In this document: piece after piece, positions 21,559 to 43,697 of the stretch
Layout of the letters: each line of letters begins with the position of its first letter
Numbering within the stretch: position 1 is the stretch's first letter
From: Streptococcus ruminantium
GTDB lineage: Bacteria > Bacillota > Bacilli > Lactobacillales > Streptococcaceae
Assembly: GCF_003609975.1 (NCBI RefSeq)
Contig: NZ_AP018400.1
Coordinates: forward strand, 1,748,501 to 1,812,500
Direction of reading: 5' to 3'
DNA length: 64,000 nucleotides
Notes under the pieces: model-generated
What the model saw: the letters and a program-made list of their open reading frames with translations, nothing else
Databases searched by the model: none
Told to the model about the DNA's origin: nothing
Program-made: the position numbers and the translations under genes

Positions 21559-21611
21559 GATTAACGTTTTGAGAATTGTGAAGCCTTGTGGGCTTTTTTG
21601 AGACCTGGTTT
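21559..21611 (-). repeat. Diverged copy of the rpsI 3' end (attachment site, left end of element A)
   Basis: 53 bases aligned without gaps to the rpsI 3' end, 39 identical. Read on the minus strand it still encodes [17 protein letters not shown] and a stop, almost the S9 C-terminus. Differences are mostly synonymous, so this is a homologous rpsI tail from another lineage. All three copies are identical at the stop-codon end (gattaacgtt), where strand exchange probably took place. Confidence 0.8.
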
Positions 21612-21739
21612 TGGGGGACAGAAGTCAAATATCTACAAAAGCTTATTAAATCAAGCTCTCAATATCTATTTCCATTAAATAAATGGACTTCCGAACCAAT
21701 CCTGCAAACAAAGGATTACCATTAGATTACCAAAAATCT

Positions 21740-21763
21740 GTTTTCGGAGCTTATGTAGTTGAG
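21740..21763 (-). repeat. Third copy of the element A 24-bp motif (inverted)
   Basis: The minus strand reads CTCAACTACATAAGCTCCG then AAAAC; 23 of 24 bases match 33043-33066. It lies 71 bp ahead of the antitoxin gene. Confidence 0.7.
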
Positions 21764-21833
21764 GAACAATGTGTATTCACTTTACTTTTTTGTAAGTTCG
21801 TTTTATAATGTATATACAAAAGGAGGTGGAACC

Positions 21834-22055
21834 ATGAATGTTATCTTGAGAAAAACAGGAAATAGTACTGTCATTACAATTCCCAATAAAATAAAAGAGA
21901 CTCTTGGAGCAGAAATTGGAGAAGAAATCGAATTTGTCACTTCGGGAAATAACGTCATCATTCGTAAAGCTGAGCCAAAATTTGATTTTGATAAGGAACT
22001 AGAAAAAGCCATGAACCAATACGATGAGCTTTTGAAAGAATTGGTGGATAGATGA
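21834..22055 (+). CDS. AbrB/MazE-type antitoxin
   Basis: 73 residues. The N-terminal swapped-hairpin DNA-binding domain is plain: NVILRKTGNSTVITIPNKI then EIGEEIEFV. The C-terminal tail is acidic and helical, as for a toxin-wrapping antitoxin. AAAGGAGGTGG precedes the ATG at 21834; an in-frame extension to 21759 lacks a ribosome site. Its stop overlaps the toxin start (ATGA), the usual arrangement of a type II pair. Expected to bind its own promoter. Confidence 0.88.
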   Translation: MNVILRKTGNSTVITIPNKIKETLGAEIGEEIEFVTSGNNVIIRKAEPKFDFDKELEKAMNQYDELLKELVDR

Positions 22056-22459
22056 GATATCTAACTGCTGAAGATATTATCAAAATCAATGTTATGGCTA
22101 TTGGTAAATATTCTCCTAATGAACCTGTTGGCATTGCTGATCCAAACAGTCTTCAAATGATTGTTGAACAGCCTAAACAAGAGATTTTCGGCAAAGTTCT
22201 CTATCCAGATATCTACAGTAAAGCTGCTATTATCTGGATAAATTTGATTAAGAAACATCCTTTTTATAATGCCAACAAACGAACTGCCGTTCTTGCCTTA
22301 CATATGTTTCTAGCAATGAATGGCTATCAGTCCCATCTCTCACTAAGTGATGGACTGGAAAAGACAATTGAAATTGCTACCTTTCAAGGAGATTTTGAAG
22401 ATTTAAAGAAAATAATTATTCACTTCCTCAAGCAAGATGGAAATATAACTAAATTATAA
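22052..22459 (+). CDS. Doc/Fic-type toxin
   Basis: 135 residues of the death-on-curing family. The Fic motif is HPFYNANKRTAVLALHMFL; Doc proteins usually show HxFxDANKR, and here the Asp is Asn. The known Doc toxin phosphorylates elongation factor Tu. It starts inside the antitoxin stop codon and ends before a strong terminator. The Asn change is allowed in several homologues, so loss of activity should not be assumed. The pair likely stabilises the element. Confidence 0.88.
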   Translation: MRYLTAEDIIKINVMAIGKYSPNEPVGIADPNSLQMIVEQPKQEIFGKVLYPDIYSKAAIIWINLIKKHPFYNANKRTAVLALHMFLAMNGYQSHLSLSDGLEKTIEIATFQGDFEDLKKIIIHFLKQDGNITKL

Positions 22460-22461
22460 TT

Positions 22462-22500
22462 AAAAAGTGGTTGTCAACTTTTCGTTGAAGACCACTTTTT
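22462..22500 (+). terminator. Toxin-antitoxin operon terminator
   Basis: Stem AAAAAGTGGT/ACCACTTTTT with an inner TCAAC/GTTGA extension, ending in a T run. Confidence 0.88.
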
Positions 22501-22534
22501 ATATCCTACTGTATCCTACTTCATAAAGGATAAA

Positions 22535-23970
22535 CTATCTGTCAACCAAAGTATAGTACTGATTTCTATCATTTTTGTTTGCGCCGTACCAATTAAGGAT
22601 GCCCAATTCTTGTAAGTTTTTCATAGTTTTTACAATAAATTTACGGCTTCTACCAGTAATTTCAATCGCTTTGGCCGTAGTCATCTTCTCGCCTGAATTA
22701 TACATGTAGTGAACCAGTAATTGCTCATCAGCATTGAGGTCGCCAAAGTCAGTAAACTGTTTCTCTAAACTATCTCGTGTTCGGAGATGTCGACTCACGA
22801 TGTTATTTTCAAGGGTCAAAACCACCTTATTACCTGGTTCTGAATATTTAGGCTCATGAAGAAATGCTGATTCCATCTCAGAGTAGATCCGTTTAACACC
22901 TTCATTCATTTCACGGACCCAGCCAAACTCTGTCAGGGTTCTGGCAACTCGAGGATTTCTTGAAAACCGTTCATGCTTGATATTGTCAACGGTGACGATA
23001 TTTGGCAATTTCCCTGGGCTATGAATTTCCAGTCGGTCATCAAACATCAGCACACGAATATGATCCCCATAGACAGAGTAATCACGGTGAGTAACAGCAT
23101 TGACAACACCTTCAAACCAGGCAAATTCTGGATACTCAGGCAAAATTTGAAATTGCCCATTGTCATCCAGATATTGGAACTCACGCAGCTGGGTACGAAT
23201 AAAATCACGAGCCTTGATAATCAGGCTTGGTAGAGCATCATCAAAGGTTGCTTCCTTGATGACATTAAAGCTAGTCCCTGTCCCCATGTCCGTGCCATCA
23301 AACCGCTGAAAACGAACACGAGCTTGAGGGAAGAAGGCTGACGGGTATTTACCAAAAAGCAAGATAGCTGCCTTGGTCAATTTTCCATTGACCAGAAAAC
23401 GCCGAGCTTTGAGAATTTCTTCCGTAGAACGGTCTGAAATATCAAATCGATTCTTGAAATCCTGTACCAGACTATCATCAATGTCTTCCAAGGTTGCGTC
23501 AGCCACAACTTCATCCTCAAAGAAACGCTGCCCTTTATCATAGCTGAGTTGAGTTCGTTGTTCATAACTAAGTTTAACAGTCTCATCACCCTGACGCAGG
23601 TAAACCTCATCATTAGGCGCAGCAATCACTCGGTTTGAAGATAATTCAACTGAGATAACCAAAATCAGGTCATCTTCCCCCTTATGATTAACCACAGAGA
23701 TTTCTTCAAATGACAAATCCAGAGGGGAGTATCACGCATCTCACGGTCAATCTTTTTGAAATCGTCTATGGGATAAGATCTGCCATCTTTGAAGCCAGTG
23801 ATGATGTTATTCTGCTTGTCGTCCTCAATACCGATGACCAGCTGACCACCATCTGCATTAGCAAAGACAATCAGGTGTTTAAGAAGTTCAGACGGCTTCT
23901 TTCGGGCGGATTTCCTGTCCAAATGTTGGCTTTCTAGTGAGAATTGGTAGTGGGATAGGGTTTGATTCAT
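22535..23970 (-). pseudogene. AlbA_2-domain (Schlafen-type) ATP-binding protein, frameshifted
   Basis: Two overlapping frames make one protein. The N-terminal part (23665-23970) has LDRKSARKKPSELLKHLIVF and ADGGQLVIGIEDD, an AlbA_2 domain. The rest (22535-23716) has the HATPase-like segment WFEGVVNAVTHRDYSVYGD and a winged-helix C-terminus. The break lies near 23730: RDTPL should continue DLSFEE, but an extra CT dinucleotide (CCCCTCTGG) shifts the frame. Family members are often found in mobile elements and near defense genes. Here it lies between the toxin pair and hsdS. Confidence 0.8.
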
Positions 23971-24034
23971 ATCATTCTCCTGAGTGTTATAGCTCTAATA
24001 GCACATCTCCCAGCCTTTCTTACTTCTCATTTAG

Positions 24035-24577
24035 TGTGCTAAGAAACCTTATGGGAAGATACTCAGTTGGAAAACCTCAACACTAAATAGAGTGACTAAT
24101 CTTTATACAGGTAATAGTATAAATGCAACTCAAAAACAACTTTATTTTTCGAGTGGTGTCGGGATAAATTATATCGCGACAAAAGATGTTGATTTTAATG
24201 GGAACATCACTTATGATAATGGTATAAAAATCCCTGACACCTACTTAGATGGTTTTAAGATAAGCCAACCTCAATCAATCTTACTCTGTCTAGAGGGAGG
24301 AAGTGCTGGGCGTAAAATAGGGATGCTAGACCAAATTGTTTGTTTTGGAAATAAACTTTGTAGCCTCTCATTTTATTCTGGTAACAATAAATTTTTATAT
24401 TATTTTTTACAAAGTCCTCAGTTTCTGAACGATTTTAAAGAGAACAAATCAGGAATTATCGGAGGTGTTAGCCTAAAGAATCTAGGTAATATTTCAATTC
24501 CATTAGTTCCATTAACAGAGCAAGCACGCATTAGTCAGCGAGTTGAGCAACTTTTTGAAAAAGTAAATCAATTTTAG
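24035..24577 (+). pseudogene. 5'-truncated hsdS fragment (inverted specificity cassette)
   Basis: A plus-strand frame opposing hsdS. From about 24065 it reads WKTSTLNRVTNLYTGNSIN, a typical start of an HsdS target-recognition domain, and ends TEQARISQRVEQLFEKV, a typical domain end. There is no upstream half and no good start; a GTG at 24092 is the only candidate. Its last 47 bases overlap the hsdS end, through a near palindrome (ACTTTTTGAAAAAGT) that encodes both tails. This looks like a silent or left-over specificity cassette. Confidence 0.75.
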
Positions 24578-26099
24578 ATACAATTTCTTTCATTTCCCGA
24601 TAATTTGAAATAGGTATTAATAGCTCTGAAATACTGGTGCTATTTAGCGTTTTACCTTTTATGGCATCCTTTAAATTACCAGCAGTTGAGATCAGGGGCA
24701 AAAAACGCATTAGATAGTCTCTTATGATGTTATCTTTATCACCATATGGAAATATTGAGATAATCGCCTCATTATGACTAGCTGGCATATCTAATAGTGC
24801 AACTTTACCGATAGACAACTTAAAACTCATCAGTAGAGTGTCTACTGGTACTATCTTCATATTTTTCTGTTTTATTGCCAAATCTGAGATATATTCTTTT
24901 GTTTGAGTAATATAACCACTATTAGGCATATCTGAAATAGATACCCAAGGAATATCAACTCCCCAATAAGTTGGTTCACTTCTTGGAGGTGTTTTTCCAA
25001 TATTGAATAAAACTAGTTCCCCAAACCTAACGTAACTCCAAGAGTTAGGAATCTCAGGCATAGTTGAACTGACGAAATCACTATTTTCTTTGTTATTCCC
25101 ATAAGGAGAGTTATCATCTCCTTTTGTCACCACTATTTCTGCCAAATCTTTCTTCTTGAGTTTACCTTCCTTATAGAGTTTTTGCTTTTCAGCTTGGATT
25201 TTTTCAAGTAAAACTTCGACAGGTTCATCATCTGGGTCTTGGGTAACTAGTTTACCTTGCATGGCGTATTGTAAGATAGATTTTTTCAACTTATCTGGAA
25301 ATTCTTTATCCAGTTCTTGCAGTCGGTTGTAACTTTCTGCGTATTCGTCAACTTTCGCCAATGCTTTTTCGATTTTCTCGACAATTCGTTTTTGTTCGGC
25401 GAGGGGTGGGAGGGGGATAAATAAATTTGAAAGATTACTTCCATTAACATTGGGTTGACCTGTTCCCATAGAAACATCTTGTAGCTGTTTCCAATATAAA
25501 TTACTATTCAAAAAGACCGTTATGTATTGTTCTATTTTTTGAAGCAGTTGAACTCTGATTAAATATGAAGCATAAACAGAGGTCTGCCCAACATGCTTAA
25601 TCAAAAAACTTTTTCCAATAGTTCCTCCAGTTCTTGCAATCACGATATCACCGGAACTTAAAATATAGTTGTCTATTTTTTCAAGAGATATATTACAGTA
25701 AGGCACTCTATCCCAATCTACATTTCCATTTTGAATATCCGTAATTCTGAGAAGTTTAGCATTACCTTTATTTTCAGATGAGGCTGTATAGCCATAATTA
25801 ATTTTTTTAGAGATACTCCCTAACCTCACCCACTCCCAACTATCTGGAATATCATAGGGGACTTCCACTTCTTGAACTGTTCCATCCGTCAACTTCTCAT
25901 AAGGTTTCCCATCATCACCTCGAAAAAGCTCTGTTTCTTTTTTATCTCGCTTGATTTTGCCATCAGCAATGAGTTTTTCTTTTTCCGCTTTGATACGTTT
26001 AAGTAGCTCACTAGCTGGCTCGTCAGTTGGGTCTTGAGAAACTAATTTTCCCTCCATTGCTCGCTGTAAGATACTAGCTTTTAGTTGTTCTGGGGTCAT
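24531..26099 (-). CDS. hsdS: Type I restriction-modification specificity subunit HsdS
   Basis: 522 residues. Two target-recognition domains begin IPDSWEWVRLGSISKKI and IPNSWSYVRFGELVLF. Each is preceded by a repeated helical spacer (SILQRAMEGKLVSQDP and SILQYAMQGKLVTQDP), the half-site organisation of HsdS. It sets the bipartite DNA target of the HsdRMS complex. The ATG at 26099 overlaps the hsdM stop (TAATG); an in-frame extension to 26237 lies inside hsdM. A second, opposing domain abuts the end. Confidence 0.95.
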   Translation of the reverse strand: MTPEQLKASILQRAMEGKLVSQDPTDEPASELLKRIKAEKEKLIADGKIKRDKKETELFRGDDGKPYEKLTDGTVQEVEVPYDIPDSWEWVRLGSISKKINYGYTASSENKGNAKLLRITDIQNGNVDWDRVPYCNISLEKIDNYILSSGDIVIARTGGTIGKSFLIKHVGQTSVYASYLIRVQLLQKIEQYITVFLNSNLYWKQLQDVSMGTGQPNVNGSNLSNLFIPLPPLAEQKRIVEKIEKALAKVDEYAESYNRLQELDKEFPDKLKKSILQYAMQGKLVTQDPDDEPVEVLLEKIQAEKQKLYKEGKLKKKDLAEIVVTKGDDNSPYGNNKENSDFVSSTMPEIPNSWSYVRFGELVLFNIGKTPPRSEPTYWGVDIPWVSISDMPNSGYITQTKEYISDLAIKQKNMKIVPVDTLLMSFKLSIGKVALLDMPASHNEAIISIFPYGDKDNIIRDYLMRFLPLISTAGNLKDAIKGKTLNSTSISELLIPISNYREMKEIVSKIDLLFQKVAQLAD

Positions 26100-27562
26100 T
26101 AGTTCTCCTCCAAAAGCTCTAAAATATCTGCCAAAACAGCATATATTTTTTGGTTCAAAGCCGCTCTTTCTTGCTGATAGTTTTGGATAAGTTCCAGCGG
26201 TTCCAAAATCTCTTCTTCTTCCTTGGGAAAGCCACATTGATCAAAATTATAGTTCAAATCAGCTAACTCAGATGGTGTAAAAGATTTGGCTTTATAAAAA
26301 TTCCCCTCTAAAATCTCCTCACGACTAGTCCACCACTCACGAACAGGATTGAAATGCTCTGACTTCATCGGCTTGGTCTTAGAAAAATTTTTATACCCCT
26401 CTGGCATGTCCAAACGATAAAACCAAGTCTGCTCCGTCTTCTTAGTCTTGTCAAAGAAAAGGATATTGGTGTGAATACCTGTGTAAGGTGCAAAGACACT
26501 ATGAGGCAAACGGATAATCGTATGAAGATTAAATTCCTCAACCAATTTTTCTTTCAAACGAGTTTTAACACCCTCTCCAAAGAGAAAGCCATCTGGTAAA
26601 ATTACCCCAACACGACCGTTTTCTTTCAGCCTATACATGATAACTGCCATAAAAAGGTCCGCTGTCTCCGAACTCCGCAACTCTGCTGGAAAATTATTTT
26701 TAATCGTATCAAGTTCGGAACCACCAAAAGGTGGGTTCATCATGATAAGGTCAAACTTCTCATCATCTGTGTACTCTCGGACATTTTTCTCCAAGGTATT
26801 GCCATGAATGATTTTAGGGTCATCAATTTCATGAAGAAAGAGGTTCGTCACTGCTAATAGGTGAGGAAAGGCTTTTTTCTCAATCCCAAAGACAGCCTGA
26901 TTGTATTTTTGAATATCCTCGCTAGTCTTACGTTGTTTGCTTAAATGATTTAAAGTCGAGGTCAAGAAACCACCTGTTCCACAGGCAAGATCAGCCATCG
27001 TTTCACCTAATTTAGGGTCAAGCATTTCAGCAATGAAATCGGTCGCTGCACGAGGGGTATAAAATTCCCCAGAGTTCCCTGCACTTTGGATGTCCTTGAG
27101 GATTTTCTCATAAATATCATTAAAGGAGTGTCGGTCTTCTGGACTATTAAAGTCCACCTCATCAATGACATTGATAACCTGACGCAAGAGCACACCGTTT
27201 TTCATGTAGTTATTAGCATCTTCAAAGGCTGATTTAACAATGCTTTTCCGAATGGGCATATTGGGTGTGATTTCAAGCTCTTTTAATTCCTTAAACAGCC
27301 TATTGTTCACAAAATCAAGCAAATCATCACCTGTCAAGACTTGCTCACCTTTTTCAGCGTGAGCCCAATTTCGCCATTTTAAGTCTTCAGGAATAATTGA
27401 CTCATAATCATCTTCCTCCAACTCCCAAACCAACTCACGGCTATCATAAATTTTCAAAAAGAGTAACCAAGACATTTGTTCAATACGTTGGGCGTCTCCA
27501 TTAACACCTGCGTCATTGCGTGTAATATCTTGAATACGTTTCACAAATGATGTAATCGACAT
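26099..27562 (-). CDS. hsdM: Type I restriction-modification DNA methyltransferase HsdM
   Basis: 487 residues. N-terminal HsdM helical domain (RNDAGVNGDAQRIEQMSWL) and N6-adenine methylase domain with SAM loop ADLACGTGGFLTSTLNHL and catalytic NPPFGGSE. The tail ending LADILELLEEN is a helical HsdS-binding extension. It overlaps hsdS by one base and lies 12 bp after hsdR. All key motifs look intact, so methylation should work. Confidence 0.96.
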   Translation of the reverse strand: MSITSFVKRIQDITRNDAGVNGDAQRIEQMSWLLFLKIYDSRELVWELEEDDYESIIPEDLKWRNWAHAEKGEQVLTGDDLLDFVNNRLFKELKELEITPNMPIRKSIVKSAFEDANNYMKNGVLLRQVINVIDEVDFNSPEDRHSFNDIYEKILKDIQSAGNSGEFYTPRAATDFIAEMLDPKLGETMADLACGTGGFLTSTLNHLSKQRKTSEDIQKYNQAVFGIEKKAFPHLLAVTNLFLHEIDDPKIIHGNTLEKNVREYTDDEKFDLIMMNPPFGGSELDTIKNNFPAELRSSETADLFMAVIMYRLKENGRVGVILPDGFLFGEGVKTRLKEKLVEEFNLHTIIRLPHSVFAPYTGIHTNILFFDKTKKTEQTWFYRLDMPEGYKNFSKTKPMKSEHFNPVREWWTSREEILEGNFYKAKSFTPSELADLNYNFDQCGFPKEEEEILEPLELIQNYQQERAALNQKIYAVLADILELLEEN

Positions 27563-27574
27563 AGTTTCCTTTCA

Positions 27575-29902
27575 TCAAGCTACTGTAAATAGCTCTTCTT
27601 CCAACTCTTTAATAGCCCTTAGATAGGCCTGCTTATTTCCAAAATAGGTATTGATAATCTTAAAGGTTCCACCGTAAATTTGAAACTCTGGTAATTTTAG
27701 CGTTTCAATGCTTTCCAGTTCACCAATTCCCTTATCCATGTACTTATCTAATAACGTCTCTAAAACAGATCGGGCCTCTTCACTGTACTTTTGCAGATAA
27801 CCACTACTCTTAACCCTGCTAATTCTCTGGCTCTTAGTCAACTCTTTTTGACCATAAGCCAGTTTTAGCAGCAAGTCAAAGTCATCAATCTCCTGTTCAG
27901 AAACCCCTTCTGCTTCTCGAATGGCATCAAGATAAACACCTTTTTTATAGAGTTCTTCTAAGATAGCTTTTTTCTTATCAGCTGCTTGCCAAGCAGTAAT
28001 AAACTCGGTCAAAGTAGCGTAAGCCCCCAGAATATTTTTCCGAGTATAGTCGGTCAAACTTTCTGTCACTAACTTCCCATTTTCATCCAAAACCTGAATG
28101 GTTGAATTGAGAACATCTACCTTTTTATCAGTAACCCTATATTTTTCAATAGGTTCTCCGCCACCTCCAGTTGGTTCTCCGCCACCTCCAGTTGGCTCTT
28201 TAGGGTCAAAGACATACGCTGGCTCTCCATCAAAATCTGGGTCTGCAAACAGATTGGTCACGTTTCTAAAATCAATAATGGTAAAAAATTCTTTCCCTTT
28301 CTGCGGGTACAAACGTGTCCCACGACCAATAATCTGTTTGAACTCCGTCATGGATTGAATATTGGAATCGAGCACAATCAAACGGCAAGTTTTTGCATTG
28401 ACCCCCGTTGTCAAGAGTTTTGATGTTGTGACAATAGCTGGAAATTTAGAATTAACATCCATAAAATTATCGAGCTGTGCTTTACCCTCTGCATTGTCGC
28501 CTGTCACCTGCATCACATAACGATAATCTTCCTGAACTAAGTCTGTATTTTCTTTGACAAAAGCCGCTCTCATCCGCTCAGCATGGTCAATATCAACACA
28601 AAAGACAATGGTTTTGTCAAATCGAGCATTGTTTTGTTTCATATAATCAGAAACAAACTTAGCCACCTTTTGGGTACGATCATCAATAACAATGGTCTTA
28701 TCAAAATCTTTCCGACCATAGTACCTATCTTCGATAAGTCTTCCTGTGGCATCCTCTTTACCACTCTCTGGACGATAGCCATTGACATCAATATCCAAAT
28801 TAACTCGCATCACACGATAAGGGGCCAAGAAGCCATCCTCAATTCCCTGTTTCAAACTATAAGTATAAACAGGCTCTCCAAAATAATCTATATTAGAAAC
28901 TTCTTTGGTTTCCTTTGGTGTCGCTGTCATCCCAATCTGGGTTGCTGAGGCAAAATAATCAATCACTTGACGCCAGTTGCTATCCTCCTTAGCTGAACCG
29001 CGGTGAGCCTCATCAATAACAATCAGGTCAAAGAAATCCTTATCAAACTTTTGGTAATGCGTTTCCTCACCATCTTCGCCTGTTAATTGCTGATACAAAC
29101 CTAAGTAAATCTCGAAAGAATTTAACTTTTCTGGAGAATTCAGTAACTTTGCTGTGATTTTGGTCATTACCTTTTCAAAAGGCTTAAAATCTTCAGCCAT
29201 TGTTTGGTCAACTAAGATATTTCGGTCAGCTAAAAAGAGAACACGTTTGGCTAAACCAGCTTTTCGCAAACGATAAATAATTTGAAAAGCCATAAAGGTC
29301 TTACCTGTCCCTGTTGCCATGACAAACATGACCCGCTTTCCTCCTCTTGCAACCGCCTCAACGGTACGGTTGATAGCGATTTGCTGGTAATAACGTGGTG
29401 TTTTATTGGAGAACGCATCAGTATAGTAAGGGACTGAAATCGCCTTTGAAACCTCAGAAGTTATCTCTTTTTCAGCAATCAAACGCTCAAATAATTCTTC
29501 ACGAGTAGGAAATTCCTCTAAAGTTAATTTACGTTCTTGCCTCGTGATACGGTCATGCTCAATAAAACCATCACCATTTGAGGAATAAACAAAAGGAACA
29601 TCTAAAATCTCACCATATTCAATCGCCTGCTGTAATCCAGCTCGTAAACTATGCTTATTATCTTTAGCTTCAACGATTGCAATACGCTGCCCAAATTGAT
29701 AGTAGAGAGCATAGTCTGATTTTTTCCCTTCTTTACGACGAGCCTTATCACCTCGAACCTCTATTCGCCCATCTGTAAAATATTCCTCATAGGCAATATG
29801 CTCACCATTTTTCCAACCTTTAGCTAAAATGGCTGGAGTAATAAAATTAGCTTTAATATCTTCTTCGCTCATGCTCTTTTTGTCTTTGATGAATGTCGCC
29901 AT
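27575..29902 (-). CDS. hsdR: Type I restriction enzyme subunit HsdR (EcoEI-like)
   Basis: 775 residues. N-terminal nuclease region with QRIAIVEAKDNKHS (the ExK of the PD-(D/E)xK site). Helicase motifs: Walker A VMATGTGKTFMAF, DEAH in LIVIDEAHRGS, GMTATP and the late IIGRGTRLYPQKG. The C-terminal 150 residues look like the EcoEI R C-terminal domain. An unusual glycine-rich linker (TGGGGEP twice) lies at about residues 570-590. First gene of hsdR-hsdM-hsdS, ATG after GGGAG. Confidence 0.95.
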   Translation of the reverse strand: MATFIKDKKSMSEEDIKANFITPAILAKGWKNGEHIAYEEYFTDGRIEVRGDKARRKEGKKSDYALYYQFGQRIAIVEAKDNKHSLRAGLQQAIEYGEILDVPFVYSSNGDGFIEHDRITRQERKLTLEEFPTREELFERLIAEKEITSEVSKAISVPYYTDAFSNKTPRYYQQIAINRTVEAVARGGKRVMFVMATGTGKTFMAFQIIYRLRKAGLAKRVLFLADRNILVDQTMAEDFKPFEKVMTKITAKLLNSPEKLNSFEIYLGLYQQLTGEDGEETHYQKFDKDFFDLIVIDEAHRGSAKEDSNWRQVIDYFASATQIGMTATPKETKEVSNIDYFGEPVYTYSLKQGIEDGFLAPYRVMRVNLDIDVNGYRPESGKEDATGRLIEDRYYGRKDFDKTIVIDDRTQKVAKFVSDYMKQNNARFDKTIVFCVDIDHAERMRAAFVKENTDLVQEDYRYVMQVTGDNAEGKAQLDNFMDVNSKFPAIVTTSKLLTTGVNAKTCRLIVLDSNIQSMTEFKQIIGRGTRLYPQKGKEFFTIIDFRNVTNLFADPDFDGEPAYVFDPKEPTGGGGEPTGGGGEPIEKYRVTDKKVDVLNSTIQVLDENGKLVTESLTDYTRKNILGAYATLTEFITAWQAADKKKAILEELYKKGVYLDAIREAEGVSEQEIDDFDLLLKLAYGQKELTKSQRISRVKSSGYLQKYSEEARSVLETLLDKYMDKGIGELESIETLKLPEFQIYGGTFKIINTYFGNKQAYLRAIKELEEELFTVA
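28152..28193 (-). repeat. 21-bp tandem duplication inside hsdR
   Basis: Two perfect 21-base units (ggttctccgccacctccagt plus t) followed by a partial third. They encode TGGGGEP twice in a linker between helicase and C-terminal domains. Copy number changes keep frame. Confidence 0.85.
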
Positions 29903-30234
29903 ACCGAGTCTCCCACATCTATACTTAATAAAAAATTATCAGAAGTATGTTACCCGTCTATTATACCATTTTTCCCTTCTTCTTACACATTTTCTCAAGG
30001 GGTTTGGGACTTTGCCCCAAGTGTTAAAATCCATCACCTAAAGGAGCCGTCTGCTCACTTTTGGTGGTGGAATTTTTGCGATAGTGTGTATACACTATCT
30101 GAGCTCGCAAAGACCTAAACCCAAGTTTCTCAGTCCTTTCTCATTGTCCCGGGTTAAATACGGGGATGACATTGCTAGGCAACTGAATTTCAAAAGAACA
30201 CAATAAAACTGCTGGCTGCTGCCAACGGTTTTAT
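29903..30234 (-). promoter_or_regulatory. Non-coding region with candidate oriT
   Basis: No gene. At 30075-30111 nested inverted repeats occur: GATAGTGT/ACACTATC with loop GTAT inside TTTGCG/CGCAAA. The ATAGTGTGTATAC core resembles known nicking regions of mobilizable streptococcal plasmids. A second GC-rich repeat (CTTGGGG...CCCCTTG) is at about 29996-30022. It sits directly after mobC, where an origin of transfer is expected. Function is inferred. Confidence 0.45.
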
Positions 30235-31236: not shown

Positions 31237-31248
31237 TTCTTCTTTCCT

Positions 31249-32091: not shown

Positions 32092-32103
32092 AAATGTTCC
32101 TCT

Positions 32104-32388: not shown

Positions 32389-32407
32389 ATCGTTACTTCA
32401 TTTCTAT

Positions 32408-33031: not shown

Positions 33032-33040
33032 ACGAACAGT

Positions 33041-33064: not shown

Positions 33065-33085
33065 ACTTAGAAACGGAGAACTGTT

Positions 33086-34510: not shown

Positions 34511-34563
34511 GATTAACGTTTACTAAATTGACTCGCTTTACGAGCTTTCTTAAGACCTGGTTT
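34511..34563 (-). repeat. Exact 53-bp copy of the rpsI 3' end (junction of elements A and B)
   Basis: Identical over 53 bases to 43645-43697. It includes the rpsI stop codon and last 15 sense codons. Identity stops abruptly on both sides. This is the att site between the tandem elements. Confidence 0.95.
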
Positions 34564-34900: not shown

Positions 34901-37570
34901 TCAATCTTTAGAAAAGCGGTCAGCAAGTACATTAAAGGATGAACTGGCATGGATTTGTTGTGAGGGAATAAAAACGTATTTCCATGGTTTTCTTCCTGTA
35001 GCCTCTGCCCAAGATGTAGCTACTTTACAAAATTGAACTGCTCGTTTCCCTTTAGCAATAACATCAGCTGTTTCAATTTTATCCTCACCTTTTACTTCTA
35101 CAATATAAAAAGCATCTTTTGTTTCTACAACAAAATCTGGAATATAGTGCCTGCCTCTATTGTATGAAATATTAAACTCTGCTGGAGCTGGTCTAAGCCA
35201 GTTTCTTACATCTTTTTCATTTTCAAGGACTCTAGCTAAAATGAGTTCAGGCTTACTATCGAATTTAGTAGAAGAAAATACTCCTTTTTTTATTCCCTCA
35301 AAAAGGACAGATTTGATACCAGAAGTATAAGAATCACTATAAAAATTTACACGCTCACTCCAAGTGAATGATTGTTCAAGATTATAGTCTCTTTCTCCAG
35401 ATACTCTTTCTTGAATCAGTCCATTTTCAGTATAGAAGTGGTCGTCTTGTAACATCTGATGATAAATTTTATTGGCAATATCTTTCTTAAACATCATTAC
35501 TATGTTTCTCAAACCATTGCTACCAAACTTTTCTTCATAAAAATCACAAACTTGTGAAATTAACTTGAATATTAACTCTGAGCACTTTTCATAGTCTACT
35601 TCAGGCTTTTCCCTAAGTAGGGTAAGAATTGTCTTTTTAGGATTATAACCGTCAAAATCAATTGCATCACTATCAATTCGTTGAATTTCTGTCAAATCCT
35701 CTAGATTCTGTAAAAGCATTTCGTTTTTTATCGGAACATGATTAAAGTCTGATAAATCAATATCAAAATCTGAAAAACCATATTCTTCAACACCTGAGTC
35801 AGTAACTCTCAATTGTGGTATAGGGATAAATTTTGCAATAGCTTCTTGATGAAACTCTTCAACAGTTTGGTCAATCCAATAACTGAAAATGTCTTGATTT
35901 TCTGTATAAACCTCACCTAAATCCTTCTTTTCTTTTATCTTAGATTTAACACGGCTAGTAAGGTTTATTTTCTGATTTGAAGTCATGTTACTAGCTTGGT
36001 TTTGTTGAATCTCATCACTAATTTCTTTTTGAACTAATAATGTAGTCTCGTCAATTACTTTATCAATTTTTTCATCTCTTTCCAGATTTAGCACCTGATA
36101 AGCTTTGAAACGTGATTCTTCTTTTTCAAAATTGAAAGATAGCTGTGTTGACGAGGACTCTGTTGCTACATCTTCAATATTTATGACATTTCCTGCCTTA
36201 AATATTGAATCTCCTTTCTGAGCCTCTTCGATTATTTCTTGGAATTTATCATGTGCAGTAAGATAAACTGCATCAACAATACTATCTCTCGTTCGCTTTC
36301 CATATGGTAATCGCAATCCCCGTCCAACCATTTGTTCTCTCAAAATTTTAGAAGTCGCTGTTCGCAGAGGAACTATTGTGTACAGGTTGTTTACATCCCA
36401 GCCTTCCTTAAGCATATTTACATGGATAACAATCTCAACAGGATTGTCACTACTCTCAATCTCAAGTAAAAGTTTGGTATTTGCTTCGCTCTCTATACCA
36501 GTTTTTTTAGAATGAACAGTAATAGTTTTATTCCGATAGAAACCATCTCTAAACTCATCAGAAGTTACAAACTCTTCTACCCATTTTGCATGCTCAGTAT
36601 CTTTACAAACAACCATCATGAAAGGTTTTACAACTCTAATAGGACTCTCTGGTGTACTATTATTTTTTGAATAACTTTCTAATTCAGCTTTTGTTCTTTC
36701 ATGAAGTTTAATTCCATCATACAACATTGTCTTATCAAGTTCTTCCTGACCGAAATTAAAAAAGTCAATATCAGAACGAGTAACTGCATAAGGAGTTCTC
36801 GTATATCCGTCTTCAATTGCTTTTGATAATGGATATTCATAGACTACATTTTTAAATTTTTCCTGTTTTTTCCCTTTACCAACAAGCGGAGTTGCAGTTA
36901 ATTCTAAACCTAACATCGGCTTTAAATCATTAAGTGCTTGCATCCCTTTTTCTGCTCGATAATGGTGTGATTCATCCATAATCATCACTAGACCCGGAAT
37001 ACTTGAAAGATAGTCATAAAAAGAATCACCGAGGAATTCATTTAGCTTCCTCATATTTGCTTCTTCTTTGTTAAATTTATCAATATTATAGACAAAAATT
37101 CTAATATCTGATTCCCACATTGAGATTTGCTTTGTTTTATAGTCATCATCTGTGACTATTTGTGGTGGATTTGAAAAACACCCAAGCCCATTAAATACGT
37201 ATTTCGAGTGATTATAATCAGATAAATCTCGTTTTAATTTTTCATATATTGTAGTATTGGGAGCTACAACAAAGAAGTTTCTTAGATTTTGCTGTGTATA
37301 TAAATATGCTATAAACGCACCCATCAATCTTGTTTTACCTACACCTGTAGCTAAAGCAAATGTTAATGACATAAAGTCTCTTTCAAAATCTGTGCATATT
37401 GGATAAAGATTATTGACACTCTTAAGTGCAGCATCTAGATTCATCCCTTTTTTAACCTGTATGGAAGTCACTATTTTTTCTAGAATTTTTAAGGAATCCT
37501 CTTGTGGTTTCCTTAGAGACATAACACCACTGATGTAGTCAGTTGTATAATGAGGAAATCTATTATTCAT
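34901..37570 (-). CDS. res: Type III restriction subunit Res
   Basis: 889 residues. Helicase motifs: ALATGVGKTRLMGAF (Walker A), LVMIMDESHHYRAEKG, LELTATPLVGKG, and EQMVGRGLRLPYGKR (motif VI). The C-terminal nuclease has RHYIPDFVVETKDAFYIVEVK, a PD-x-ExK site. The frame is open to 37609, but GAGGAGG and the ATG at 37570 give an 8-bp overlap with the mod stop, the usual coupling. Res cuts after ATP-driven sliding, only in complex with Mod. No disruption seen. Confidence 0.92.
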   Translation of the reverse strand: MNNRFPHYTTDYISGVMSLRKPQEDSLKILEKIVTSIQVKKGMNLDAALKSVNNLYPICTDFERDFMSLTFALATGVGKTRLMGAFIAYLYTQQNLRNFFVVAPNTTIYEKLKRDLSDYNHSKYVFNGLGCFSNPPQIVTDDDYKTKQISMWESDIRIFVYNIDKFNKEEANMRKLNEFLGDSFYDYLSSIPGLVMIMDESHHYRAEKGMQALNDLKPMLGLELTATPLVGKGKKQEKFKNVVYEYPLSKAIEDGYTRTPYAVTRSDIDFFNFGQEELDKTMLYDGIKLHERTKAELESYSKNNSTPESPIRVVKPFMMVVCKDTEHAKWVEEFVTSDEFRDGFYRNKTITVHSKKTGIESEANTKLLLEIESSDNPVEIVIHVNMLKEGWDVNNLYTIVPLRTATSKILREQMVGRGLRLPYGKRTRDSIVDAVYLTAHDKFQEIIEEAQKGDSIFKAGNVINIEDVATESSSTQLSFNFEKEESRFKAYQVLNLERDEKIDKVIDETTLLVQKEISDEIQQNQASNMTSNQKINLTSRVKSKIKEKKDLGEVYTENQDIFSYWIDQTVEEFHQEAIAKFIPIPQLRVTDSGVEEYGFSDFDIDLSDFNHVPIKNEMLLQNLEDLTEIQRIDSDAIDFDGYNPKKTILTLLREKPEVDYEKCSELIFKLISQVCDFYEEKFGSNGLRNIVMMFKKDIANKIYHQMLQDDHFYTENGLIQERVSGERDYNLEQSFTWSERVNFYSDSYTSGIKSVLFEGIKKGVFSSTKFDSKPELILARVLENEKDVRNWLRPAPAEFNISYNRGRHYIPDFVVETKDAFYIVEVKGEDKIETADVIAKGKRAVQFCKVATSWAEATGRKPWKYVFIPSQQIHASSSFNVLADRFSKD

Positions 37571-39245
37571 TCTCATCCTCCTCATATTCATAAATTGGCG
37601 GATTGACAATATTCAAGTTGTAGTTTTCTTTATTGAATTCACATCTATCAAGAAGCATTTGTGGAAGTTTCTTGATTGTAATATTTTTATATTTATTACC
37701 AATTTCTCTTGAAAAAGATTTACAAGCAATTATCAAATATTCATTATCTTGCATAGTAGACTGGATTGAATCGATAATTTGAGTGTTAACATGACGAGTT
37801 GTAACAAAGAGATAAGAATTTTCACTACCAATTGATTGTTTCCAAAAATAATTGCTATCGGGTTGATATAAAAAACCTTCATGTAGAGCTACTGCGCTTG
37901 CCAACATATCCGCATCATAATCAGGGTTAATTACGTGTTCATCAAAAAGGTCCTTTTTAATTAATGAAGGCGCTAATTCATAAAACTTATATGCCCCACC
38001 ACCTTGCCAGTTAACGATTCTAGAAATTCCACCCTGATCGCTTCCGTCAATTACTCTATCTAAGCGGGTTTTACAATGTGTATAAGCATGGTCTCCCATT
38101 TCTATTCCAATATACCGTCTGTTCAACTTTTGAGCAACAGCTGCTGTTGTTCCTGATCCAAGAAATGAATCTAAAACTAAGTCACCTTCATTAGTTGCAG
38201 TTTTTAAAATTCTCATCAATATCTTTTCAGGTTTTTTACTTTTTGCAAAAGAAACTCCACCTTCTTGTGCCACTCCGCCGTCATTTGAAATATCAATCCA
38301 GTTATCTGAAACATATACAGTAGAATTTGCCTTAGCTTGCACTAATTCAATTCTTGGATCTTTAGCATCTCGGTTAAAATCTGTTCTAAAAAATCTTTTA
38401 TTCCCATCATTATTCGTATAACAATAAATTATCTGTTCAAATTCTTCAGTTTTATATTTTTGAACCAGCGGCTTGTTTGATTTTGAGCCAAAAATCCTAT
38501 ATGAATTGTTCCATTTCCACTCATCAGTCAAGTCAATTTGATTGTCCTTAGCATAACTCGAAAGGCTCATAAGGCGCATACCTTTTAGTATTTCGTTTAC
38601 CTCTGAATCACTCAATTCATGAAATGAATCAAATTGGCTTTCAGATAATTCCGGAATAATTAAATTATATTCTTTGTCCCACTGCTTTTTGTTTATTTTC
38701 TCTATTTTTAGCGGAGAAAAAGCAATACCTTTTTTATAAAGCAAAATATATTCTTTTTGTGCAGGAAATCTTTTTCCGTTGATAACATGGGTCATTTTAA
38801 CACCCGAAAGGCTATTCATGTTAACTGAAATAATATTAACACGATTATTTCTTCCAAATATCTCGTCCATTATAACAGTTAAATAGGCTAATTCATTATC
38901 ATCAATCTGAACAAACATCCAGCCATCATTTGCTAGTAATTTGTACAGTATCTCAATTCTTGCTTTCATTAATGTTAACCAGATAGAATGTTCTAGGTTA
39001 TCGTCATAATGTTCAAAAGCAGAGCCAGTATTGTAAGGCGGGTCAATGTAGATACACTTTACTTGTCCAGCATATTTTTTTTCTAAAGCTTTCAAAGCAA
39101 GTAAGTTATCACCATGAATAATCATATTTTCTGTGTTTGGATCATTTATACAATTAGATTTGTTACTATCTTCAACTAGTAACCGTGGTTCTAATTTAAC
39201 TTCATCTTCTTTTCCTATCCATGTTAATTCTAGCTTGTTTGCCAC
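37563..39245 (-). CDS. mod: Type III DNA methyltransferase Mod
   Basis: 560 residues. Order of motifs is DPPYNTGSAF (about residue 70) before DSFLGSGTTAAVAQ (about residue 363), the beta-class order of type III Mod proteins. The region between them is the target-recognition domain. GTG start at 39245 after GGGAGG. Unlike many streptococcal or pathogen mod genes I see no simple-sequence repeat that would make it phase variable. Forms an operon with res. Confidence 0.92.
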   Translation of the reverse strand: MANKLELTWIGKEDEVKLEPRLLVEDSNKSNCINDPNTENMIIHGDNLLALKALEKKYAGQVKCIYIDPPYNTGSAFEHYDDNLEHSIWLTLMKARIEILYKLLANDGWMFVQIDDNELAYLTVIMDEIFGRNNRVNIISVNMNSLSGVKMTHVINGKRFPAQKEYILLYKKGIAFSPLKIEKINKKQWDKEYNLIIPELSESQFDSFHELSDSEVNEILKGMRLMSLSSYAKDNQIDLTDEWKWNNSYRIFGSKSNKPLVQKYKTEEFEQIIYCYTNNDGNKRFFRTDFNRDAKDPRIELVQAKANSTVYVSDNWIDISNDGGVAQEGGVSFAKSKKPEKILMRILKTATNEGDLVLDSFLGSGTTAAVAQKLNRRYIGIEMGDHAYTHCKTRLDRVIDGSDQGGISRIVNWQGGGAYKFYELAPSLIKKDLFDEHVINPDYDADMLASAVALHEGFLYQPDSNYFWKQSIGSENSYLFVTTRHVNTQIIDSIQSTMQDNEYLIIACKSFSREIGNKYKNITIKKLPQMLLDRCEFNKENYNLNIVNPPIYEYEEDENE

Positions 39246-39401
39246 TTTGTTTACCTCCCATCTTACATGCTTCTATTATATCACATTAAGTTTCTTTTCA
39301 TTTTTGTACTTCATTCTTCTTAAATCCGTCAATGTCCGATTTATTCAAAAACTTTCCTGAAAATAAGTCTTTTCAAGAAATTAACTTTCTCTAATTTAAT
39401 A

Positions 39402-41337
39402 CTAGTGAGAATTAATTTTAAATTTTATCCCTCTCTTTTTCCCAATACTTTCAATACGCTCTTTATTTAATTCATATATGTCTGAATTGTCCGTCCAAAT
39501 GCCAATTTCAAAGTCCAGATGTTTTGTCCGAATTGTCTCCCTTTCTATGAGTCCCATCAATTCCCAAAAATCTAAAAATTCTGAGTCTGATAATTCATCT
39601 ACTAACTGTTTTATGTGATTTTCGTTATCTCTATAATTTTCAAAATTTCTAGTAACTAGATAATAGATATAAACTTTATGATTTTCTAAATCTAGTTCAT
39701 CTTTATTTTGAAGCATTTTTTGAGATAATTCAGTCAATAAAGGAATAATGAATTGTCCACCAAATCGATAATCAAGATGAAATTTGATTTTCTCTGACAG
39801 ACTAAATTTTTGGGTGTATACCTCCCACCTTCTATATTCATGTTCATTTATCAATTTTTGTATTTCATCTTCTGTTGTATCTCTTTCCTGATTTTTCCCT
39901 TGTATACTTTTTTTATACTTTCCCGTTTTTTCTATTTCTGATTTACTTTCCAGATATATTTTTTTACCTAATTCAGATACAACAAAATTAGTAATTTGAT
40001 TTCGGTTTCCCTCTTTGACTTCTTCAATAACTAGTTTTTCAATTAAAGTTCTATTGTTTTCAAACACTTTACGGTCTTTATTGATTCCGTCTATAAAATC
40101 TTCCATCATAGGCTGTTGAAATTTAGAATACTCTATAACCAGGTAAATAAAAATCATCATTGTTGTTGCTTGTATGACTTCTCGAACTTATTTTCATCAG
40201 AAAAATGTTCTCCTTCTTTTAAAGATAAATTCTTTACATACTCATCTACATAGTATATTCTCTATTATAAAATTGTCTTGGATATGTATTTTGAGTATTA
40301 TCTATTAAGATTTCAAAAATCTTTCTTTATAGTCTTCGAACGATTTCTACCCTCATAAGATGATTCTCTATCTCGAGTTACCGTCCTGAATCTAAGGTAA
40401 CTCACAAAGTCTTTAATTCTAAATAATATTTTGGTTAAAACAAAAAGATATAAACAATCGTTATTAATTGCTGGATATTAACAAGGTCTCTTTTCCCTCG
40501 TTCAAAAAGTTCATAATTCAGCAAATCGGAGAATTGTTTTAGTTCACGCAAAGTCCTATCTTCATTTTTTATAATTAAAATAATTCCAGGATTAAGAACA
40601 TCTTCTTTAATTCCAAACGCTGAAGATAATTTATCTAAATAGTTTGTCCAAATATTTCTAGAATTTAAGACAGAAGGGAGTTCCAATCTTCTATCAATGA
40701 TTTTCTGTAAATATTTTCCACTTTCCTCATCACCCTTAGATATTTTATGGTAATCTCCAATAAAGACAATCGGAAGTTTTCCGTGTAGAATATTAAAAAG
40801 TTTATATGCCTCATTCTGTCTTTCAACTGAAATTCTGTCAAAATCATCTATTATTAAAACCTTATTATTTAAACAACGTGGTAGTAATCGGATATAAAGT
40901 GAATCTGACTTCACTTTTATAAGTTGATAAACGGTAACTAATAATGCCATTATGGTTCCTATAGTTATCAAGTAATTTGGAATATACGTAGACAGACCTA
41001 AATTAATTGCTGGGGTCATTAGTACACTAATTACAGCCATAAATAGAATTAAAACTCTCATGAACTTGTATTGAAATGGATGTAACAAACTAAAAGCTAT
41101 AGCTGTTACACTTCGCTCATCTTGTAATTCCCATAGTTTTAAATTTACGAATCTAGTCCTATTTGCATTTCTTTCTGCATTATTTAAAAAGGTAGTTTTA
41201 CCACTTCCCCAAACACCATTTAAAAAGAATGTTTGATAACTTTCCTTTCTATCTGTTAAAGATTTTTTTAGAATTATTTCTACAAATGTTTTCTCGGCAT
41301 TTTCAGTAGAGACTTCATCAAATCTAATTTCTTCCAC
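39402..41337 (-). pseudogene. KAP-family P-loop NTPase, multiply frameshifted
   Basis: N-terminal part (40435-41337, GTG start) has Walker A FLNGVWGSGKTTFLNNAE, two membrane segments (about residues 94-140) and Walker B KVLIIDDFDRIS, the layout of KAP NTPases. The frame is lost near 40435. Coding remnants continue in other frames (ILIDNTQNTYPRQFYNREY, then YVDEYVKNLSLKEGEHFSDE) to a last open piece (39402-40160) rich in charged residues. At least three frameshifts. KAP NTPases occur in phage-defense contexts, fitting the restriction genes next door. Confidence 0.7.
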
Positions 41338-41571
41338 CCTTTAGCCCTAATTCCTTCTTAATCTAGTTTATTCTAGTATAACACATCCGATTATATTTAA
41401 ATAAAAAGAGGAGGTCTGTGCGCGATACACCGACTTCCTTTTAGAAGATTTTGAAATAATAACTTTACAACATACCCCTTCTAACTCATCTTACATTATA
41501 ACTCCCCCCTTTGCCCCACATACCGAAACGTCCTGACATTCTTATTATCGACCTGAAATTCAAAATAATGA

Positions 41572-41991
41572 TCTCGTCCGTCTGGTGCTCTCTTTTTTGA
41601 ATCACTCAAAAGCTACAGCCAAGTATCTGAGTTACTTACTGAAAAATTAAATACCCCTGCTCATGTCGAGGTTATTATGTCTCCTAAAGGTATGTACGAC
41701 TATTTTATTCATGCGGAAAATCCTGAAAAAACGCTCTATAACATTGAAGATATTGAATCAGGATGCGGCTTTGAATTGGATAAATTCTTACGTAACAATA
41801 ACAACGATGAATTTCTCTCAACTGTCATTGACATTATTGAGGATTATAACTTTACTGAGTTCAATAACCTTGTTAAATATGCGCGAGATGAAGACCCAGT
41901 GCTCCTAGCACTCATTGTAGATAAGACTTATTTCTTTGCCAAATATCTTGATTCACGGCGACATTCTGGATTCGGGAAACAGGAGGTCTAA
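41572..41991 (+). pseudogene. Rolling-circle Rep (Rep_2-like) C-terminal remnant
   Basis: The frame reads ELLTEKLNTPAHVEVIMSPK, GMYDYFIHAENPEKTLYNIE, then DIESGCGFELDKFL. This matches the later half of Rep_2-type plasmid initiators (the NPEK-x-Y and DI...GG/F segments). No start and no N-terminal catalytic part; upstream frames are broken. It ends 1 bp before the excisionase start region, so this was once a rep-xis-int module. Confidence 0.6.
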
Positions 41992-41992
41992 A

Positions 41993-42256
41993 ATGCAAGT
42001 TATCTTACCTGATGAACAAATTCATCAAATTCAAACACTACTATCCAATCTTATTCAAAAAGAAATTGAGCAACAGTTAGTACAAAATGGTCTTAACAAC
42101 CTCTATCTAAACAAGAAACAAGCATGTAACTATTTAAGTATTTCTAACAATACGCTTGATTCTTGGATTCAAATGGGGCTTCCATCTATTAAAATTGGAA
42201 AAACAGTTCGTTTCGACAAACAAGCTATAGATACTTGGCTACTTTCACAAAACTAG
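41993..42256 (+). CDS. xis: Excisionase-like helix-turn-helix protein
   Basis: 87 residues. C-terminal HTH_17 pattern: LNKKQACNYLSISNNTLDSW then IKIGKTVRFDKQAIDTWL. The N-terminus is a short coiled coil. AGGAGG precedes the ATG at 41993; the longer frame to 41936 overlaps the Rep remnant. Position 65 bp before the integrase gene is classic for an excisionase (Xis) that steers excision of the element. Confidence 0.8.
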   Translation: MQVILPDEQIHQIQTLLSNLIQKEIEQQLVQNGLNNLYLNKKQACNYLSISNNTLDSWIQMGLPSIKIGKTVRFDKQAIDTWLLSQN

Positions 42257-42321
42257 AAATATCTACATTTTTGTTTTATAATGGTCATGATATTTTCTGG
42301 TTCGATATAAAGGAGAATATC

Positions 42322-43540
42322 ATGACTATCACTAAGACAAAAAATGGTACTTATCGTTTAAAAGTTTACATCCCTACCGAAGCACGAATGCCCCTTGGTA
42401 TCGTAAACAACAACTACTTTGACAAACGTTTCAAAACTAGGAAGGAGGCACGACAAGCTGAGATAGAACTTTTAACAAGACTCAATCAGATTGAAGATAA
42501 CGAGTTTACAGGACTAGGTAAAGGAGAAATTCTGTTCAAAGATTTCTTTGAATCCATTTGGTGGGAAGCCTACAAGGCAGGACAGACTACTTCAACAACT
42601 AGACCTCCTAGCAAGTCAACGGTAGTTAATACTAAAACTTGTTTTGAAAAGCACCTTCTTCCCTTACTTGGAAACTACACTATTCAATTTCTAAATCAGA
42701 ACAAGCAAGTTATTCTAAACTTGATGACTGCTAAAGCTAATGAATACGCCAATTTCAAGACCTTGAGAAGCTATGTGATTTCCATATTTGATTGGGCTGA
42801 GGAACTTGAATATATTGAGAATAATCGCCTTGCTAAAACCTTACGCCGTATCAAGGCAACAAAGAAAATTCAATTAGCCGAAGCTAGACGAGATGAAGAC
42901 CTCTATCTGACTCAGGAACAGTTACAAGCATGGTTTACTGCTTTTCAAGCAAGATTTGGATGACGATAAAATCTCGCTAAAAGATTATGTTCTCTTCTAT
43001 TTGACCTTCTTTCTAGGAGATAGGAAATCCGAAACTTACGCTTTGCAATGGAAGTATATCGACTTTTCAAAAGCACAAATCCAACTAATTTAGGCTTTGG
43101 ATAGATATGGGGAGGTAAAATCAACCAAAGGAAATAAGAAAACAATCTTTGTAATTTCCGAAGACCTAACTCATCTCCTCAAACTATGGAAAAACCAACA
43201 AAAACATGAATTAGCTAAATTTGGAATAATTACCAATCCTGACCAATTCGTGTTCACCTATATCGATACCAAAGGCAATGTCAATAAACCTCTGCACGCT
43301 GATTATCTCAACAACAAAATGAAGTCTGTTAATAAGCGCCACCCTGAGCTTGCACATGCTACACCACACAAACTACGCCACACAGGAGCAACACTTGCTA
43401 AACAGGCTGGCATGAGCTTAGAAGCCATTTCAGAGGCTCTAACCCATAGCGATACCGCTACAACTCAAATTTATGTCAATACTTCCAATGTCGTTCCTAT
43501 AACAGTTGGAGAATTTACTTTAAAGTCTCTCAAGAAATAA
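42322..43540 (+). pseudogene. int: Tyrosine integrase of element B, frameshift and nonsense codon
   Basis: ATG at 42322 after AGGAGA. The first 213 codons give the arm-binding and core domains (MTITKTKNGTYRLKVYIP). The frame is then lost near 42950 (FQARFG-stop; the next frame reads QDLDDDKISLKDYVLFYL). A TAG at 43091-43093 interrupts IQLI-stop-ALDRYGEV, probably from CAG. The C-terminal catalytic part (ATPHKLRHTGATLAKQAG, ALTHSDTATTQIYVN) is intact. Two independent lesions show it is dead. Confidence 0.88.
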
Positions 43541-43644
43541 GGTAAAAATGAGGTAAATTATAAGGTGAACTTTTCAAAAAATCACAAAAAAAGCACCCAT
43601 GAGGTAAACTCTTGAGTACTTTGAAACCTTGATATAATCGTATT

Positions 43645-43697
43645 GATTAACGTTTACTAAATTGACTCGCTTTACGAGCTTTCTTAAGACCTGGTTT
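43645..43697 (-). repeat. rpsI: rpsI 3' end attachment site (right end of element B)
   Basis: The last 53 bases of rpsI including stop codon, repeated exactly at 34511 and in diverged form at 21559. Integration here regenerates the rpsI end, so the ribosomal gene stays whole. Confidence 0.93.

Follow-up and report, generated by a model that had tools for sequence, protein, structure and literature searches.

Stacked integrative islands at the 3' end of rpsI in Streptococcus ruminantium and an apparent exchange of terminal rpsI codons

Genomic islands are known to accumulate at the 3' end of rpsI, the gene for ribosomal protein S9. In Streptococcus suis, accretion of one integrative and mobilisable element onto another at this site has been reported, with tyrosine integrases and direct repeats; the passages on accretion give 21-69% likeness between the integrases of the partners and mention decayed elements (PMC5357655, PMC7168690). 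IMESag-rpsI of S. agalactiae is an element of about 9 kb at the same 3' end, for which excised circles have been shown and which encodes the MOBV1 relaxase MobSag (PMC5090054). Islands at rpsI that have an integrase and no relaxase, termed 'GI', have been suggested to be mobilised by a co-resident integrative and conjugative element (PMC7168690). In Escherichia coli, the e14 prophage integrates in the icd 3' end and supplies its terminal codons (PMC6379469). Here we describe a 64,000-nucleotide stretch of the Streptococcus ruminantium genome (contig NZ_AP018400.1, positions 1,748,501 to 1,812,500; hereafter the window), in which two islands, element A and element B, lie head to tail behind rpsI.

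Set against what these sources describe, the locus resembles the published Streptococcus rpsI accretions in its site, tyrosine integrases and direct repeats, and differs from them in that A and B are without a recognised relaxase, carry two restriction systems, have both integrases broken and lie on two older relic layers that can be resolved (PMC5357655, PMC7168690). With IMESag-rpsI it shares the rpsI 3' end, whereas no counterpart of the relaxase MobSag was found in A or B (PMC5090054). Like the 'GI' islands, A and B are integrase-bearing with no relaxase found, and the genome has one PF03432 relaxase elsewhere; unlike in those islands, the integrases are broken (PMC7168690). The likeness to e14 and icd lies in the 3' end of a housekeeping gene and in terminal codons supplied by the element, while the difference lies in different islands across a genus, a ribosomal protein gene and a synonymous, hypervariable tail in the S. 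suis-like clade (PMC6379469). Accretion at rpsI, relaxase-less islands there, decayed partners and element-supplied gene ends are already known. For a genus-wide synonymous rewriting of rpsI we found no published description, most subscription papers and supplementary files lying outside the search.

We regard the region, with high confidence, as a tandem accretion of integrative islands at the rpsI 3' end, in which the newcomer supplied the last rpsI codons, A was added after B on the relics of at least two older islands, and both integrases were later broken. The features that carry this reading are given here from rpsI outward, with the strand in brackets.

43647-44039 (-): rpsI, ribosomal protein S9 of 130 aa, the target gene; an open reading frame (ORF) with 91-95% identity to the 26 closest relatives listed
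43645-43697 (-): tail copy 1, the rpsI 3' end adjoining element A (direct-repeat search, genome search)
34564-43644: element A, bounded by tail copies 1 and 2
42322-43540 (+): tyrosine integrase of A, frame broken (frame change and internal TAG)
34511-34563 (-): tail copy 2, an exact rpsI 3' end at the A/B boundary (direct-repeat search, genome search)
21612-34510: element B, bounded by tail copies 2 and 3
34241-34510 (-): integrase-side arm of B, a terminator and dispersed-repeat module (34388-34510) followed by a B-type arm (34241-34387)
33086-34240 (+): tyrosine integrase of B, in-frame stop at codon 34, catalytic part still open
21559-21611 (-): tail copy 3, an alternative, mostly synonymous haplotype close to one seen with B-type integrase arms
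21425-21558 (-): apparent relic of the integrase-side arm of a third element (class 'tcaaaacc'); an identical stretch of 32 bp within it is read as a terminator hairpin
21336-21403 (-): putative relic of a fourth element's integrase-side arm (class of A; identical to relative L046 in 53 of 72 columns)
20869-21210 (-): iron-sulfur (FeS) assembly gene of the DUF59 type, the conserved chromosomal far-side neighbour (PF01883; place relative to rpsI in relatives)

A repeat search of the window returned one three-copy direct-repeat family, at 43645, 34511 and 21559 in the same orientation. Together with a genome search this confirms what an initial annotation of the bare sequence had claimed, namely that the rpsI 3' end recurs exactly at 34511-34563 and in altered form at 21559-21611, all in one orientation. 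Copies 1 and 2 agree over 53/53 bp, and a 401-bp query from the rpsI end matches only three places in the genome (a single contig of 2,090,539 bp; E <= 0.001), with E values of 9.5e-210, 5.7e-21 and 3.8e-4. The S9 C-terminus can be read on the minus strand in all three copies. Copy 3 differs from copy 1 at 14 of 51 nt, as its earlier description as diverged implied, with a single residue changed in the peptide (Arg to His); judged on this comparison, chance is excluded as its source. Simple decay was rejected as well: copy 3 matches the alternative tail haplotype that accompanies B-type arms elsewhere.

The same annotation placed an integrase or its relic to the left of every repeat. This holds for copies 1 and 2, where both integrases are broken. 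Relatives such as L040 have a single open frame of 415 codons at the place of the A integrase, and an intact relative of the B integrase in L047 is open over 384 aa with its arm-DNA-binding domain at residues 13-58, the part that the stop at codon 34 costs the B integrase. To the left of copy 3 no integrase was found, relic integrase-side arms only. The arm at 21425-21560 aligns to that of L043 with 96 of 137 identical columns and a score of 100, which none of 1000 shuffles reached (best 53). The fourth-element relic at 21336-21403 is the weaker of the two claims: all six A-class arms of relatives match it (score 59-73, 0/1000 shuffles reaching any of them), the window's own A arm scores 49, reached by 7/1000 shuffles, and arms of two other classes gave no match. 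The two stacked elements originally proposed for one rpsI site were therefore an undercount of a correctly recognised accretion; with A, B and two relics beyond 21559, the stack appears from these alignments to hold at least four layers. Towards the FeS-assembly gene, a likeness of 21211-21390 to the DNA before that gene in L034, L037 and L038 was rejected, as its score fell below those of shuffles.

How could island after island enter a ribosomal protein gene? The attP of an island would duplicate the terminal ~50 bp of rpsI, and the island's tyrosine integrase would recombine it with the matching chromosomal sequence. We infer that the exchange takes place in the 5' part of the repeat, whereby the newcomer would supply the last rpsI codons and its own integrase-side arm and leave the protein unchanged; rpsI would stay functional because the incoming island brings the missing codons. 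Each newcomer would insert between rpsI and the earlier occupant, islands would stack outward with the newest adjoining rpsI, and the previous tail would remain as a distal copy marking the older island. Under this scheme A, with its type III restriction-modification system and KAP protein, would have arrived after B, with its type I system and Doc/MazE-like pair; B would rest on at least two older relics, and both integrases would then have broken, freezing the stack.

Relatives, each standing for one species and not for a strain of one species, offer a view of the same site in other hosts. Among 284 genomes, two had no rpsI match. In 13 of the 16 S. suis-like clade genomes that have both genes on one contig, this one included, the FeS-assembly gene lies on the far side in the same orientation as rpsI, so that the left flank of 21559 is found where the initial annotation expected it, behind rpsI in relatives. 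Of the 28 clade genomes, 11 have the two genes on different contigs and one (G157) has no listed place, and these were left out; in three of the 16 (G058, G064, G261) the best FeS-assembly match lies elsewhere. The distances from rpsI to this gene, subtracted by hand, are 0.86, 11.9, 13.7, 13.7, 19.6, 22.4 (this genome), 27.1, 34.4, 36.2, 42.6, 45.8, 46.7 and 53.0 kb. G246 has a nearly empty site of 856 bp that keeps an arm remnant, and no completely empty site was seen among the relatives examined. For a wider survey we used 95 Streptococcus genomes, one per species and mostly from the upper part of the identity-ranked list of 284, after six of 101 loci (L068, L071-L075) had been dropped for a missing rpsI end. 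With at least 8 kb behind rpsI in 78 of them (17 left out), an integrase homologue lies within 2.5 kb of rpsI in 42, 29 of these being open over at least 350 codons; 28 of the 78 have a distal tail and six, this one included, have two or more.

Of the single-element sites that had been suggested for comparison, one with B alone may be present in G248 (L053), where a B-type island lies directly at rpsI with no A between (12 kb examined behind rpsI). In G253 (L047) the order is rpsI, B-type island, tail, A-type integrase, the reverse of this window. Both cases speak against acquisition of one composite element of ~22 kb in a single step, with the middle repeat internal to it, a history that the common orientation of the three repeats and the position of the whole block between rpsI and its conserved far neighbour would fit. 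A and B moreover have their own, distantly related integrases (33% identity over the matched part), and the A methyltransferase has no match in the other 283 species genomes at E 1e-120. Taken together, we consider a single composite acquisition very improbable. Independent occurrence of A elsewhere extends to its integrase class at rpsI and to L151 (contig titled S. suis HCJ31), where Res is 77% identical, Mod is more diverged (50% along most of the protein) and a distal rpsI tail lies ~1.4 kb from the Res end.

Accretion by integrases would also have to be distinguished from exchange of island DNA by homologous recombination, for instance in natural transformation, between the rpsI-linked islands of different strains, which might have brought in or edited most of the stack while integrases made only the oldest insertions. 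Element B is a mosaic, and the species with the best match changes from module to module: int (91.9%) and xis (97.2%) in L129 (G059), the helix-turn-helix (HTH) regulator (97.1%) and the AlbA-type gene (91.0%) in L142 (G013), and doc-mazE (~95%) in L047 and L094 (G156). L053 is close in hsdR (96.7%) and hsdM (98.1%), but only 76-81% identical in int, regulator, xis, rep and mob; other matches of the B backbone modules are mostly 65-83%. Distal tails unlike the rpsI tail of their own genome are likewise common (27/35). Yet many genomes show tails, arms and integrases in the places expected from site-specific integration, and the order of the layers varies from genome to genome. We therefore hold homologous recombination as the main builder of the stack to be possible but doubtful.

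If islands supply the last codons of rpsI, does the gene itself record their passage? With a codon counted as variable at a mean pairwise difference of at least 0.05, the 88 variable codons among 1-111 correlate with the rest of rpsI at a mean of 0.234, as against 0.036 for the 11 from codon 117 on (p 9.7e-7). When body distance is controlled for, the tail follows the arm sequence after the stop codon (r 0.157, 0/999 permutations, 95 genomes). Pairs of genomes in the S. suis-like clade (28 genomes) differ on average by 0.042 per codon in codons 1-111 and by 0.350 in 117-128, the latter value being reached by none of 100 body windows of twelve codons. One haplotype, GCCCGCAAGGC, is found in seven of the 95 genomes, all seven with a B-type arm, which occurs in one of the 88 others (p 7e-10); the bodies of these seven are 1-12% apart, their tails 0-3 nt. 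Tails with AGY serine codons go with 'gaa' arms (13/25 vs 6/70, p 1.6e-5). AACCAGG begins 36 of 37 distal tail copies, which were found by peptide, a search that favours such a start.

Across the 95 genomes, then, the last ~10-14 rpsI codons lose the signal of the rest of the gene and in part take on that of the adjacent arm; integration seems to replace the 3' end of rpsI by synonymous codons. The tail differences are indeed nearly all synonymous, which would also suit relaxed or otherwise different codon selection at the gene end, with no replacement by islands. Selection of this kind seems to us a most unlikely cause, as the signal changes sharply close to where the repeat starts, one haplotype tracks the arm class across hosts whose bodies differ by as much as 12%, and nothing like the tail is seen in any body window of the clade. 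Overwriting is most simply explained by an exchange that falls in the first ~30 bp of the repeat, to which homologous recombination between tails would add.

Several observations weigh against such overwriting. Genus-wide, tail and arm are modestly linked (r 0.157), and the tail is no more diverse than the body (0.249 vs 0.251). In a subset of 84 genomes, which leaves out 11 with the GCC-CGC haplotype by design, codons 115-124 decouple less (mean r 0.093 vs 0.226, 5 codons, p 0.001) and the arm linkage is confined to codons 125-128. The single linkage tried in 37 distal tails points in the same direction and is not significant (p 0.06), and the distal tail equals the rpsI tail of its own genome in 8 of 35 cases. 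In the window itself tails 1 and 2 are identical, so overwriting is not displayed there, and no change of rpsI can be credited to the arrival of A. Tails that recombined homologously with one another would be decoupled too, and the sample is one genome per species, mostly from the upper part of the ranked list.

With these points weighed, we think it fairly likely that the rpsI 3' end serves as an exchange cassette throughout the genus. Each island would bring its own last ~10-14 rpsI codons, and the gene end would testify to the most recent island instead of to host ancestry. A stack of distal tails, two in this window with two relic arms beyond, would form a stratigraphic record of past islands, and enterococcal conjugative megaplasmids with the same attachment-like tail could ferry islands between genera.

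A copy of the rpsI tail is present on conjugative megaplasmids of Enterococcus faecium beside a recombinase gene, for example in NZ_LR135171.1 at 55627-55706 (L229, L235). Different integrases accompany it in three of five plasmids looked at closely, and a further plasmid has a piece annotated as integrase. At least part of a 221-bp junction query is matched by 79 plasmid records, 74 of them from Enterococcus. These plasmids were rejected as proof of a crossover at the 5' end, because the place of the tail in the plasmid stays the same while the integrases beside it differ; the tail may be an attachment site that resides there. In one E. faecium plasmid island, a gene pair annotated as methyltransferase and helicase shows a distant relationship to Mod and Res of element A; comparison of the island with the KAP and neighbouring ORFs of A gave no convincing relation.

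The remaining genes of element A are, from the integrase inward:

41936-42256 (+): excisionase-like HTH protein (TIGR01764, E 9.9e-9)
40435-41337 (-): KAP-family P-loop NTPase ORF of 300 aa, possibly truncated (PF07693, E 1.9e-14)
39402-40160 (-): ORF of unknown function between KAP and Mod (weak PADLOC Upx match, E 5e-4)
37563-39245 (-): type III methyltransferase Mod (PF01555; PADLOC MTase_III, E 4e-142)
34901-37609 (-): type III restriction subunit Res (PF04851; PADLOC REase_III, E 3e-138)

In this type III system mod and res are full length and adjacent, and Res aligns end to end with L151. At the limits used, the ORF at 39402-40160 matched nothing in Pfam, NCBIfam or PHROGs. The integrase class of A also appears to serve full-size prophages, because the record of phage Javan88 of S. 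canis (MK449009.1, 25-1559) carries a terminal integrase and a small upstream gene 76% identical to those of A.

Element B is larger and more composite:

32477-33031 (+): Cro/CI-type repressor (PF01381, phrog_8)
32104-32388 (-): excisionase/HTH-like protein (phrog_668, phrog_66; also phrog_57, terminase small subunit, 1.3e-6)
31249-32091 (-): phage-type replisome organiser (PF09681, E 9e-47; TIGR01714; phrog_4880)
30334-31145 (-): two MobC/NikA-like accessory mobilisation proteins, no accompanying relaxase (PF21983, 25.0 and 23.0 bits)
27575-29902 (-): type I restriction subunit HsdR (Pfam, PADLOC; identity to L053 as above)
26099-27562 (-): type I methyltransferase HsdM (Pfam, PADLOC; identity to L053 as above)
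24531-26237 (-): type I specificity subunit HsdS (PF01420, PADLOC)
24092-24577 (+): further, inverted hsdS fragment
22535-23970 (-): Schlafen AlbA_2/HATPase_c_4 gene, frame-shifted (Pfam; the homologous stretch of L047 is an open ORF of 502 aa)
22052-22459 (+): Doc toxin (PF02661; phrog_577, Doc-like)
21759-22055 (+): MazE-like antitoxin (PF04014)

The type I system has hsdR, hsdM and hsdS all present; a search for inverted repeats of an hsdS switch gave only weak matches of 10-20 bp. The cargo of two restriction systems, a toxin pair and a KAP NTPase is as first described, with two exceptions: the AlbA/Schlafen-type gene carries a frameshift, and the KAP ORF closes after 300 aa, further in-frame stops following beyond 40437. 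Read from family membership, the cargo of A and B would be putative phage defence. A Schlafen/AlbA-type gene is also found in 15 of 100 relative loci, several times near a distal tail or a Doc/MazE pair, and is perhaps a common cargo of rpsI islands. The traits of phage-inducible islands, an integrase, a regulator and a replication module, come together in B only, where the sole candidate for packaging interference is the weak terminase-small-subunit-like match of the HTH protein at 32104-32388, which has no Pfam or NCBIfam match. An IMG/VR scan with the B integrase found no relative.

On the integrase side of B, the B-type arm is 92% identical to that of L053 over 131 bp. The preceding module of ~130 bp, a terminator and a dispersed repeat, also stands in G137, G133 and G081 between the rpsI tail and integrase arms of two classes; in G137 and G133 it ends in a near-copy of the tail end, CTCAAAACGTTAA. 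The order of its parts is matched in G137 (L068), at 81% over query bases 1-119 of 125. That 34388-34510 might be the native rpsI terminator caught between A and B was rejected, since G137 has tail, terminator, repeat and B-type arm in succession and the same module precedes another arm class in G133 and G081. We treat it as part of the integrase-side arm.

Can the islands still move? No relaxase family was matched among the A and B proteins tested, in a search that at genome scale covered the PF03432 family alone and did not extend to oriT, nor was any matched in ten tested ORFs of a B-type relative. The sole PF03432 relaxase of the genome lies ~0.8 Mb from the island. Among the A and B ORFs given to Pfam there were no conjugation genes; both MobC/NikA-like matches fall under the 27-bit cut-off of PF21983, and Tn5252_Orf10 is far under its own for one of them. 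Because both integrases are broken, present mobility is not indicated: the stack looks fossilised and, short of a different recombinase acting in trans, is probably fixed. Among the recombinases encoded outside the island, the best scorer shares 27% identity with the B integrase over the part that matched.

Two further stretches of DNA may be mentioned. Just past the far neighbour, a large ORF (17611-20394) with repeated histidine-rich motifs presumably encodes a protein resembling the streptococcal histidine-triad protein. NZ_CP044103.1, a 23-kb S. dysgalactiae record filed as a plasmid, combines albA/hsdS-like island DNA, the invertase PsrA, an rpsI tail and phosphotransferase system (PTS) genes, and may be a chromosomal contig rather than a plasmid.

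The locus thus presents a defence island as a fossil stack with distinguishable layers, at a site where species exchange anti-phage cargo module by module. Should the rewriting of rpsI by islands prove general, tail haplotypes would be a cheap marker of past occupancy, the 3' ends of target genes would have to be trimmed before phylogenies or typing, and the crossover positions of rpsI integrases would become testable.

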